Origin: Clostridiales bacterium
Lineage (GTDB): Bacteria; Bacillota; Clostridia; Tissierellales; GPF-1
Direction of reading: 5' to 3'
NCBI GenBank assembly: GCA_013619125.1
Contig: JABXKS010000063.1
Coordinates: forward strand, 1 to 48,505
DNA: 48,505 nucleotides
Positions 9,404 to 33,566 of the stretch are shown piece by piece (the stretch's first letter is position 1; every line of letters begins with the position of its first letter). The notes beneath the pieces were generated by a model. The model made no database searches. It saw only the letters and a list, made by a program, of their open reading frames with translations, and had not been told where the DNA came from. A program made the position numbers and the translations under genes.

Positions 9404-9416
9404 ATTGGAAAAAGAG

Positions 9417-9439
9417 AAAGGGCAGAAGCCCTTTTTTTT
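9417..9439 (+). terminator. terminator after the traX-like gene
   Basis: AAAGGGC / GCCCTTT with an AGAA loop and eight T. Confidence 0.92.
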
Positions 9440-9608
9440 GAATTCCTGTGGTATGATCAATTAATTGAAAGAAACTCGGATGAAACAACGACGATTTGCG
9501 TAACTGTAATGCTGGGGAGAAAGAGTTCGCGAACCAAGTGATCAGGTGGGAGACAAGCTGATGTTGGGCTTCGATGAAAAAACTTTGCGTATTCTATAAA
9601 AACAAGTG
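9440..9608 (+). other. unassigned segment upstream of the T-box promoter
   Basis: No recognised gene. An extended -10 (TGG-TATGAT, 9449-9457) could start a transcript. Positions 9510-9599 are free of stops in one frame; the 29 codons read in a protein-like way (GERVREPSDQVGDKL, then MLGFDEKTLRIL) but have no start codon with a ribosome binding site and follow two stops. There is also a possible hairpin ATCAG / CTGAT around 9541-9562. It could be a gene remnant or a structured RNA; I cannot decide. Confidence 0.3.
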
Positions 9609-9637
9609 TTGACAAACCACGCACACGATGATAAAGT
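9609..9637 (+). promoter_or_regulatory. promoter of the T-box/peptide transcript
   Basis: Consensus TTGACA (9609-9614), 17-base spacer, TAAAGT (9632-9637). Transcription would begin near 9644. Confidence 0.6.
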
Positions 9638-9643
9638 TACTTA

Positions 9644-9885
9644 ACATTTAAATGACGATGATGAAACGCCAAAATCAGAAACTGTACAGAGAGTTTGGGG
9701 ATTTGCTGGAACCCAAATCAGGGCATGATTTTGAACTCCTTTCTGAGTCTTGTCTGTGAATTGTAGTAGCAGACAACGGAAGCCCCGTTAAAAGCAAAGA
9801 AGAAATTCGGAGTGACACGGTTTGTGTAACGAAGGTGGTACCGCGGGTAATGACTCGTCCTTTTTATAGGACGGGTCTTTTTGTT
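9644..9885 (+). ncRNA. T-box riboswitch, probable leucine (CTC) specifier
   Basis: All T-box landmarks are visible: AGAGAG and the distal loop GATTTGCTGGAA closed by TTTGGG/CCCAAA (9694-9717), lower Stem I helix CAGAAA/TTTCTG (9676-9681 with 9740-9745), Stem III AACGG/CCGTT (about 9775-9789), the T-box AAGGTGGTACCGCG (9832-9845) and a terminator. Aligning its specifier side with the thrS T-box in this window (TTTTGAAA-ACT-ACC there, TTTTGAA-CTC-CTT here) puts CTC (9736-9738) at the specifier, i.e. tRNA-Leu. TCC or ACT in neighbouring registers cannot be fully excluded. Downstream lie two small peptide genes rather than a synthetase or amino-acid operon. Confidence 0.9.
9852..9885 (+). terminator. 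T-box terminator (regulated)
   Basis: GACTCGTCC / GGACGGGTC stem with an 8-base loop followed by TTTTT. Its 5' arm contains the bases that would pair with the T-box in the antiterminator. Confidence 0.88.
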
Positions 9886-9915
9886 TACTTGAAATAAAAA
9901 AAAGGAGGGGAAAAG

Positions 9916-10029
9916 ATGATGGAAAAACGTAAAAATGAGAACCATGAACATTCAACAGTTTATGCATATGCGCAACAAAATGTGAATTATTTTGGTTTGG
10001 GTGCATGTAAAGACGAGTGGGAGGACTAA
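9916..10029 (+). CDS. T-box-controlled 37-residue peptide, copy 1
   Basis: An unrecognised small gene directly behind the T-box. AAAGGAGGGG lies 5 to 7 bases before ATG 9916 (a second ATG follows at once). Residues 1-14 are variable and charged; residues 15-37 are VYAYAQQNVN-Y-FGLGACKDEWED. It has one cysteine (C31), one tryptophan (W35) and an acidic tail. There is no signal peptide or membrane helix. The second copy downstream shares 22 of the last 23 residues, while six of those codons differ only at synonymous positions; this shows selection on the peptide itself. Possible roles are a modified-peptide precursor, a signal peptide or a small regulator. I do not know the function. Confidence 0.85.
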   Translation: MMEKRKNENHEHSTVYAYAQQNVNYFGLGACKDEWED

Positions 10030-10067
10030 AAAGAAAGGCTGAACAAACAAAATGAGGGGGTGAAATC

Positions 10068-10181
10068 ATGATGGAGCAATATAAGGGTGAGAATAATGAA
10101 GTTGCCGCTGTTTACGCATATGCGCAACAAAATGTGAATTTTTTTGGATTGGGAGCATGTAAGGATGAATGGGAGGACTAG
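10068..10181 (+). CDS. T-box-controlled 37-residue peptide, copy 2
   Basis: Same length as copy 1 and 38 bases behind it, with its own ribosome binding site (TGAGGGGG) and the same ATGATG start. The variable part is MMEQYKGENNEVAA; the conserved part is VYAYAQQNVN-F-FGLGACKDEWED, differing from copy 1 only by Phe for Tyr at residue 25. The shared N-terminal frame MMExxKxENxE shows that the whole gene was duplicated, with the first 14 residues free to drift. No modification enzyme, protease-exporter or immunity gene is adjacent; the next large gene is a metallo-beta-lactamase-fold hydrolase with its own promoter. Confidence 0.85.
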   Translation: MMEQYKGENNEVAAVYAYAQQNVNFFGLGACKDEWED

Positions 10182-10184
10182 AGC

Positions 10185-10241
10185 ATGAAAGACGACCTAA
10201 GTGACATTATAGGGAACTTGCAGAAAAATAAGAATCGGTGA
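10185..10241 (+). CDS. possible 18-residue ORF after the tandem peptides
   Basis: ATG at 10185 opens an 18-codon frame (MKDDLSDIIGNLQKNKNR). GGGAGG inside the last codons of peptide copy 2 lies 8 bases upstream and could act as a ribosome binding site, which would couple its translation to copy 2. Its 3' end forms the left arm of the following hairpin, so translation could influence termination. No homology is recognised; it may be chance. Confidence 0.35.
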   Translation: MKDDLSDIIGNLQKNKNR

Positions 10242-10282
10242 GGGCAACCATGGTGTTGAACTTCGCGGGTTCTTATTTTTTT
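10224..10282 (+). terminator. terminator or attenuator of the peptide operon
   Basis: AAAAATAAGAA (10224-10234) pairs with TTCTTATTTTT (10270-10280), and the sequence continues in a T run. The 35-base interior has only weak secondary pairing, so this is less canonical than the other terminators here. Confidence 0.6.
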
Positions 10283-10312: not shown

Positions 10313-11179
10313 ATGAAGCTTGAAAAATTAACAGACGGAATCCTGTTTTCTCATCCTGTGGAAGATACAGATCGGCCTATTTTAGCAGGAATTTGCGGTG
10401 ATGACTTCACCCTGATGATAGATGCGGGCAATTCAAAATCCCATTATCAGGAGTTTGAAACCGCCCTTGCCGAGAACCGATTTCCAAAACGGAATGCAGT
10501 TGTTTTAACCCATTGGCATTGGGACCATATTTTTGGTGCGGCCTCGGCAACGGGACCTGTGATCGCTCATCGCCTGACACGGGAAAAAATGATGGAATTA
10601 AAGGATTATAAATGGACAGATGAAGCGTTGGAAGAACGGGTGAAGGCTGGGACGGAAATCGAGTTTTGTCGAACCTGTATCGCAACGGAATTACCGAGTC
10701 CCCGAGAGGTTGTTATTCGAATTCCAGAGATTGAGGTAGACGAGCGTTTGATTCTGGATCTTGGACGCACGCGATGTTTGATCGAGCATCTTGGCAGCGA
10801 GCATGCGAAGGATCATCTCGTTGTTTTTTCGGAAGAGGATCGGGTGCTTTTTATAGGTGATATTTTATTTGTCGAAATCTATGACGGAGAGTGGTATTGG
10901 ACACCGAGAAAGGTCGAGAGGCTAATCGATCGACTATTGTCTTATCCGGCGGAGTGGATTGTAGCATCTCACGTCTATCCCGTACAGTCGAGAGCGGCCT
11001 TTGAAGCGGAATGCTCGTGGATTCGATGGATCGGCGAGGTGGTAGAGGCTACGGGGTCTTTAGAAGCGGTAAGAGAAAGGATCGCAACTGATGCGCCCGG
11101 ACGTGAGGAAGAAGGAATGGAAATGGCAAGCTGGTTTATAGAAGGTTTGAGACGTGAAAATGAGAGCAAGGTGAAATAG
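10313..11179 (+). CDS. metallo-beta-lactamase-fold hydrolase
   Basis: A 288-residue soluble MBL-fold protein. The two-metal site is complete: THWHWDH (H67, H69, D71, H72), H164 in GSEHAKD, D183 in IGDIL and H220 in ASHVYPV. The substrate is not evident; the family includes lactonases, glyoxalase II, thioesterases and phosphodiesterases. The start at 10313 is picked because AAGGAGGAG lies 5 bases upstream; an upstream in-frame start at 10292 lies on the -10 box. It follows the tandem peptide genes but has its own promoter, so a functional link is only conjecture. Confidence 0.9.
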   Translation: MKLEKLTDGILFSHPVEDTDRPILAGICGDDFTLMIDAGNSKSHYQEFETALAENRFPKRNAVVLTHWHWDHIFGAASATGPVIAHRLTREKMMELKDYKWTDEALEERVKAGTEIEFCRTCIATELPSPREVVIRIPEIEVDERLILDLGRTRCLIEHLGSEHAKDHLVVFSEEDRVLFIGDILFVEIYDGEWYWTPRKVERLIDRLLSYPAEWIVASHVYPVQSRAAFEAECSWIRWIGEVVEATGSLEAVRERIATDAPGREEEGMEMASWFIEGLRRENESKVK

Positions 11180-33300: not shown

Positions 33301-33566
33301 AATCAGAAAAGCAATGAAGGGACGAGTAAAAATCAGATGCCTCAAGAGAGGATGGGATGCTGGAATCCATCTAGGCTTATGGTTTTGAAAACTACCCCGG
33401 AGCTGGATCAAAGACCTGTTTGGCAGCAGATAATCTGCGACAGGTAATGATACCCGTTTGGACACGTTACGTCTTTTGAGGAAACAGCGGCTTTATGGTT
33501 GTTTCGAATTAGGGTGGTACCACGTGATGCATACCTCTCGTCCCTATTAAGACGAGGGGTTTTTTT
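33301..33566 (+). ncRNA. T-box riboswitch of thrS, threonine (ACT) specifier
   Basis: Contains AAGAGAG and the distal loop GATGCTGGAAT closed by GATGG/CCATC, the specifier segment TTTTGAAA-ACT-ACC with ACT at 33391-33393, a Stem III-like hairpin, the T-box AGGGTGGTACCACG (33511-33524) and a terminator. ACT matches tRNA-Thr and the gene controlled, so it serves as an internal standard for reading the other T-box in this window. Confidence 0.95.
33533..33566 (+). terminator. T-box terminator of thrS (regulated)
   Basis: ACCTCTCGTC / GACGAGGGGT stem (33533-33542 with 33551-33560, one G-U pair), 8-base loop, T run. Confidence 0.9.

Follow-up and report, generated by a model that had tools for sequence, protein, structure and literature searches.

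We analysed a 48,505-nucleotide stretch of DNA from a Clostridiales bacterium (contig JABXKS010000063.1 of assembly GCA_013619125.1; hereafter, the window), in which a T-box riboswitch precedes an operon of very small genes. The operon comprises a promoter, the T-box leader, two tandem genes for 37-residue proteins, here named A1 and A2, a third short open reading frame (ORF), B, and a terminator (Table 1). An earlier sequence-only reading, made by a model, had described a complete T-box leader with its own promoter, followed by two 37-codon genes and a terminator with no amino-acid gene between them. This description was confirmed, but the 18-codon ORF had been overlooked. That third micro-ORF, the spread of the proteins outside the genus and an isoleucine-sensing branch go beyond the earlier description.

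The leader was examined using cmscan with the Rfam T-box model (RF00230). It matched the full model (positions 1-219; E 5.3e-25) well above the gathering score of 93 bits; the sequence-only reading had named a score below threshold as grounds for rejecting it. The T-boxes of both available congeneric genomes also exceeded this cut-off (106.1 and 98.6 bits). Twelve T-box pairs differed among the three species; all nine of those outside stem III kept standard pairing, with one changed on both sides, while stem III held all 6 unpaired or gapped cells of 141. The antiterminator and the GACUCGUCC hairpin with its U-run overlap in the CUCGUCC segment, making the two forms mutually exclusive. Upstream, TTGACA and the 17-nucleotide spacing were kept in both congeners, in which the -10 element reads TACACT or TAATCT; promoter-like sites as a class were not above shuffles near the operon (3, against a shuffle mean of 2.3). 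The operon terminator was placed from its folding energy and is absent from the list of a simple terminator scan. A search within the genome for the nearest paralogue of this T-box gave no informative answer, with identities of 41-53%.

Table 1. Features of the T-box operon, with positions in the window.
Feature	Position	Strand	Remarks
Promoter TTGACA-17-TAAAGT	9609..9637	+	10/12 consensus matches
T-box leader (RF00230): stem I, stem II, stem IIA/B region, stem III, antiterminator	9649..9865	+	cmscan 115.7 bits
Specifier codon CUC (Leu) in bulge GAA-CUC-C	9736..9738	+	Read from cmscan alignment; identical in three species
Antiterminator bulge UGGU	9836..9839	+	Complementary to ACCA end of tRNA-Leu (A73)
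T-box intrinsic terminator	9852..9882	+	Hairpin at 9852-9877, -17.3 kcal/mol, and terminator scan
Small protein A1, 37 residues	9916..10029	+	MMEKRKNENHEHSTVYAYAQQNVNYFGLGACKDEWED; upstream AAGGAGGGG
Small protein A2, 37 residues	10068..10181	+	MMEQYKGENNEVAAVYAYAQQNVNFFGLGACKDEWED; upstream GAGGGGGTG
Putative micropeptide B, 18 residues	10185..10241	+	MKDDLSDIIGNLQKNKNR; start, stop and length kept in three species
Operon terminator, 5' arm within micropeptide B	10221..10282	+	-26.8 kcal/mol; hairpin kept in both congeners

A1 and A2 share 78% identity, and each of their genes lies behind a purine-rich ribosome-binding site. The B ORF starts three bases past the A2 stop, and GGGAGGA sits in the last A2 codons. 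Across the three species, variable columns in core codons 14-36 fell largely at third codon positions (1/1/12 for positions one to three in A1, 2/2/10 in A2). The ratio of nonsynonymous to synonymous substitution rates (dN/dS) in the core was 0.02-0.17 in five of six orthologous comparisons; in the sixth, dS was saturated. Judged from these substitutions, the peptide core of A1 and A2 is evidently under strong purifying selection. For B, the corresponding counts were 4/3/8, a pattern that by itself would be modest evidence of coding. All six A copies of the genus carry a single Leu codon, TTG or TTA. We considered this choice as an adaptation to starvation and dropped it, because TTG and TTA together make up 231 of the 452 Leu codons in 12 window genes. 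Each peptide of the genus has no Cys or one, with Trp replacing Cys in one copy. The six peptides had no significant match in Pfam, NCBIfam or PHROGs (best E 0.043); the sole Pfam match, at that value, was to the beta-TrCP D domain, and NCBIfam gave none. A search of solved structures likewise produced no convincing match (best E 0.4).

We next considered which amino acid the T-box senses. The 3' side of the specifier bulge is GAA-CUC-C, followed by UUUC, which pairs with GAAA. The convention of the T-box database, in which the specifier occupies positions 2-4 counting from the bulge end (PMC7778990), gives CUC (leucine). CUC and UGGU are likewise combined in the leuS and leuA T-boxes of this genome (genes named by NCBIfam), which also encodes a tRNA-Leu(GAG) whose A73 matches the UGGU bulge. 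A serine specifier, UCC, could be read one base later in the bulge; it was ruled out because the serS T-box of this genome has UGGC, matching G73 of tRNA-Ser, whereas the T-box of the operon has UGGU. Together, these features support a T-box that is probably specific for leucine. The sequence-only reading had named tRNA-Leu from an alignment with the thrS T-box in the window, and the present evidence points to the same tRNA.

Both congeneric genomes contain the whole operon, third ORF included, with its parts in the same order from promoter to terminator. Compared with both, approximately 7.4 kb is absent from the window between 9506 and 9534. In one congener, this stretch encodes a PRD-type regulator, an EIIC-like permease, and the solute-binding protein and ATPase of an ATP-binding cassette (ABC) transporter, and the other congener has the same ORFs there. 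At the edges of the deletion scar (9404-9596) remain the start of the gene for the PRD-type regulator and, from the ABC ATPase gene, its final 22 codons. The T-box operon, which adjoins the scar, is intact in the lineage of the window. Beyond the operon terminator, on the same strand, lies a gene for an MBL-fold hydrolase (10313-11179), which also comes next in both congeners; between terminator and gene, an extended -10 element (TGTGATATAAT) can be read from the sequence. Elsewhere in this genome, two similar T-boxes (L039, C12:29748-29973; L040, C12:27212-27436) are separated by ~2.5 kb and precede genes for two amino-acid ABC substrate-binding proteins whose N-terminal stretches are nearly identical.

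To look for relatives beyond the genus, we searched other genomes with profiles of the A proteins. The first profile gave five matches in the window's own order (246 other genomes; E 0.035-0.047), one in a sample of the class (390 others; E 0.0027), which had no T-box, and none at E 0.005 in a sample of the phylum (397 others). Taken alone, this profile suggested a family confined to the genus, a view that was overturned when weak matches were checked for T-boxes. Genome G090, which belongs to a different family of the order, has a weak match (E 0.188) immediately downstream of a T-box scoring 116.8 bits; the matched protein has 38 residues from its likely start, ends YEQNLNFFGNGMFKDNFEN, and is followed by a 10-residue ORF (MEDEIIHIIT) and a terminator. 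A profile including this member matched genome G506, from another order of the class (E 0.107), where a T-box of 129.8 bits precedes a 60-residue protein ending STMNYFGTGSLKNNW, then a hairpin and an opposite-strand ORF. With both members in the profile, 87 of 214 genomes of the order of G506 had some match at E 1, and 14 tail-bearing genomes were accepted, of which 12, counting G506, have a T-box and two do not. Searches with the second profile, at E 2 in the window's order and at E 0.3 in the class, matched 111 of 249 and 54 of 391 genomes, respectively; almost all of these matches look like chance.

Relatives were counted only among weak matches whose locus was retrieved, each locus being ~3 kb or less. 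Among the loci examined, 13 genomes outside the genus have an A protein with the tail downstream of a T-box at gathering level (106.9-129.8 bits); the T-box core sequence precedes the matched tail by 138-856 nucleotides and is on the same strand. With the two congeners, relatives thus stand behind a T-box in 15 other genomes; absence of the peptides from all related genomes was what the sequence-only reading had counted against itself. We also pooled 104 candidate loci, all outside the genus; two of them, L016 and L153, are the same place, and the figures barely change without the repeat. T-box core sequence was present within 1 kb upstream in 13 of the 18 loci with the tail motif, N[YFH]FGxG-x(3,9)-stop, versus one of the 86 loci without it, the group that holds the repeated place. 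In that one of the 86 (L155), a T-box-like string lies inside a coding gene, and cmscan found no T-box; a control cmscan of 20 weak-match loci including L155 found a T-box in none. L047 was dropped, its T-box being downstream of the match, as was L051, which has no T-box. The motif-bearing loci without a T-box are L194, L202, L147, L180 and L218, and in the last three the tail matches look like accidental fragments. Viral contigs searched with the genus profile yielded no relative, nor did plasmids and phages searched with one window peptide (plasmids also with two relatives). Ten of the wider members had no significant match in Pfam or NCBIfam (best E 0.045), the two weak ones being NCBIfam TruD at E 0.045 and Pfam Ten1 at E 0.17.

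The A proteins of the family have 33-65 residues from the chosen starts, with a hydrophilic, variable N-terminus and a conserved tail. All 15 relatives inspected have an aromatic residue among their three C-terminal positions, and several have no Cys at all. By eye, the specifier is CUC (Leu) in the window genus and in loci L176, L190-L193 and L196, and AUC (Ile) in L005, L195, L197, L198, L203, L205 and L206; in L193 and L196 the bulge, GAUCUC, additionally contains an AUC, though not at the usual position. The antiterminator bulge is UGGU in all 13 T-box relatives. Within 25 nucleotides after A, 8 of 15 relatives have a B ORF of 10-15 residues that starts with ME and is rich in acidic and Ile/Leu residues (for example MEDIDIILKT, MEEIDIIIKV and MESDIDLDINIDISN); no clear B ORF was seen in the f94 relatives or in L206. 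In 15/15 relatives, A is followed by a hairpin that has four or more T among the eight bases after it, although the hairpin is weak in L176 and L206 and the count has no shuffle control. In 8 of the 13 T-box relatives, the closest long frame past the terminator is encoded on the other strand, and A is therefore the likely output of these units. The A proteins thus appear to form a wider family behind Leu or Ile T-boxes, mostly as the sole genes of the unit.

Locus L203 (G1128, minus strand, T-box at 2009-2244) is a second case of tandem A proteins behind one T-box. They end PVNFFGCGNFELY and NCNYFGCGSFEF and are followed by the Ile/Asp-rich B ORF MESDIDLDINIDISN. A further T-box lies on the opposite strand at 2499-2725.

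Comparison of sequences thus leaves the T-box, its probable leucine specificity, the coding status of the genes, the stand-alone operon and its recurrence well supported. On this basis, we regard it as quite likely that the operon is dedicated to starvation-induced microproteins that act in trans. Transcription would start from the promoter (9609-9637) and run into the leucine T-box. With tRNA-Leu(GAG) charged, the leader would end at 9852-9882. When this tRNA is uncharged, base pairs would form between its anticodon and CUC (9736-9738) and between its ACCA end and UGGU (9836-9839), the antiterminator would form, and only A1, A2 and possibly B would be made before the operon terminator. Antitermination is presumed to work as in characterised T-boxes, with uncharged tRNA raising A, and perhaps B. 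The tail is the likely working part of A, because it is the conserved part; most likely it would bind a cellular target in trans, following the logic of anti-TRAP, and so adjust metabolism or gene expression in branched-chain amino-acid starvation.

As branched-chain amino acids activate CodY, as described for Staphylococcus aureus (PMC5794164), and the genome of the window encodes CodY, this regulator is a candidate target. CodY-box-like sites near the promoter were matched by few of 400 shuffles in L203 (2), L206 (6), L194 (7) and L202 (12). In L194 and L202, such a site, with three mismatches, stands just upstream of a promoter-like sequence, in place of a T-box, which suggests another route from the same signal. 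It is conceivable, if doubtful, that uncharged tRNA-Leu or tRNA-Ile induces microproteins whose N[YF]FGxG tail acts in trans on a regulator responsive to branched-chain amino acids, for instance CodY, as an 'anti-CodY'. We treat the CodY link only as a lead that may be drawn from these sites.

Several observations weigh against the proposed dedicated operon or parts of it. The specifier loop of stem I usually carries an AGUA/GAA motif, and both strings occur in the Rfam consensus for RF00230; in the window and both congeners the GAA side is present, but the 5' side reads CGCC, not AGUA. By eye, the leuA T-box of the same genome also lacks AGUA on that side. The UGGN rule used to assign leucine is broken at the thrS T-box (33305-33548), which has UGGU although the tRNA-Thr genes have U73. 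As four of the 13 T-box relatives share one genus and six one family, they do not represent 13 independent origins, and the enrichment of T-boxes at motif-bearing loci (13/18) is not an independent test, because the tail motif was written after the members had been seen. The congeneric loci L194 and L202 (G1052 and G1029) carry a plausible A and B with no T-box found upstream, and in L195 (G1010; the 856-nucleotide case) a transposase-like ORF (452-1560; TnpA-like by eye) lies between the T-box and the A gene. The predicted structure was poor (predicted local distance difference test score, pLDDT, 62; predicted template modelling score, pTM, 0.31). As to CodY, the sites in the other 12 of 16 loci, window included, were equalled by at least 38 of 400 shuffles; no CodY box was found above the window operon, and such sites were at chance level across the whole window.

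Alternatively, A might be the precursor of a modified or processed peptide, such as a signal or a bacteriocin-like or cofactor-like product, with the tail as product, the N-terminus as leader, and the enzymes and exporter encoded elsewhere. The small size of the proteins, the tandem copies in the window genus and L203, and a conserved C-terminal segment behind a variable N-terminus, with an aromatic residue at or near its end in every relative, would all suit a precursor. However, we noticed neither a maturase nor a protease or peptide exporter within ~10 kb of the operon in the two congeners and the window (20-kb stretches; 22 kb of the window), a check in which 10 predicted proteins were compared with Pfam and the others were inspected visually; the wider relatives were seen as loci of ~3 kb or less. 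One copy has Trp where the window peptides have Cys, several relatives have no Cys, and the downstream frames vary among relatives, with no significant family match. We consider a precursor unlikely.

The short ORFs might instead be cis-acting leader or attenuator peptides, with B modulating read-through into the downstream gene, here that of the MBL-fold hydrolase. B ORFs are Ile/Leu-rich and directly precede the terminator, whose 5' arm in the window lies inside B, and a Leu-rich attenuator peptide is known upstream of ilvD in S. aureus (PMC5794164). Against this, the nearest long frame lies on the opposite strand in most T-box relatives (the 8 of 13 noted above), and the f94 relatives have no clear B. 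Nor is the downstream hydrolase gene a branched-chain amino-acid gene; the frames in relatives are varied (not all were identified), and the extended -10 element lies past the terminator, ahead of the hydrolase gene. The A copies of the genus have one Leu codon each, unlike classical leader peptides. A cis-acting role is at odds with A and unlikely for B, and we rate this explanation as improbable overall.

It is more improbable still that the T-box mainly controls the hydrolase by read-through, with the peptides as by-products. The hydrolase gene is on the same strand and follows the operon in both congeners too, but the strong, conserved terminator (-26.8 kcal/mol) separates them, a promoter-like extended -10 element comes after it, and relatives have other neighbours. 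An orphan T-box, whose amino-acid gene was lost and whose short ORFs are incidental, would fit the large deletion beside the operon and the missing amino-acid gene, but it can practically be discounted given the coding-type substitutions, the same operon in congeners without the deletion, and the T-box-linked related proteins of a second family of the order and of a second order.

Returning to the dedicated microprotein operon, we compared it with known systems. The closest is anti-TRAP of Bacillus subtilis, which is encoded in the rtpA-ycbK operon and has a zinc site of paired cysteines. An anti-TRAP-like site of this kind is not expected here, because the peptides of the window genus have at most one Cys each. 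Anti-TRAP is a small regulatory protein driven by a T-box, rather than a synthetase, biosynthetic enzyme or transporter (PMC7430163, PMC2494555), and the likeness lies in an output outside those classes. It differs in that Trp is sensed, whereas the operon and its relatives have Leu or Ile specifiers, and in that the A genes are often tandem or accompanied by a second micro-ORF. None of the weak Pfam and NCBIfam matches of the six genus and ten wider members was to the anti-TRAP family, in line with the earlier judgement that the two are unrelated in sequence.

The leucine T-boxes of ilv-leu, leuS and yvbW in Bacillota control leucine synthesis, charging and transport, whereas only micro-ORFs follow here. 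Wels et al. (2008) counted 54 T-box genes of unknown function; Table 2 of that paper gives a permease (yvbW) as its leucine entry and does not list protein lengths (PMC2494555). The S. aureus ilv-leu operon has a Leu-rich attenuator peptide, similarly a short ORF tied to branched-chain supply, with CodY involved, but it acts in cis on ilv-leu and not through a T-box (PMC5794164); here, no branched-chain gene follows and A has a single Leu. In Clostridioides difficile, c-di-GMP-I riboswitches precede small hypothetical proteins, a similar downstream gene with a different riboswitch and ligand, and the 25 T-box units described in that review are of synthetase, metabolism, transport or ACT-domain genes (PMC11477304). 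Among the matches listed in our literature search (titles and beginnings of abstracts), there was no T-box driving such peptides and anti-TRAP was nearest, although a mention in print is still possible. These comparisons support the operon as a new output class for a known riboswitch, with anti-TRAP as the closest precedent, much as the sequence-only reading had suggested in calling it a new type of T-box output.

T-boxes have been regarded as switches that provide feedback control of synthetases, biosynthesis and transport, and the operons described here would add starvation-induced protein effectors to their outputs. They would also define a protein family that has no model in the scanned libraries and would give a handle on how tRNA charging is coupled to a wider response. 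If the anti-CodY reading is true, a regulator that itself responds to free amino acids would be informed of tRNA charging, as TRAP is by anti-TRAP, and in Clostridia the operons would constitute a signalling arm of branched-chain amino-acid starvation that is driven by tRNA charging.
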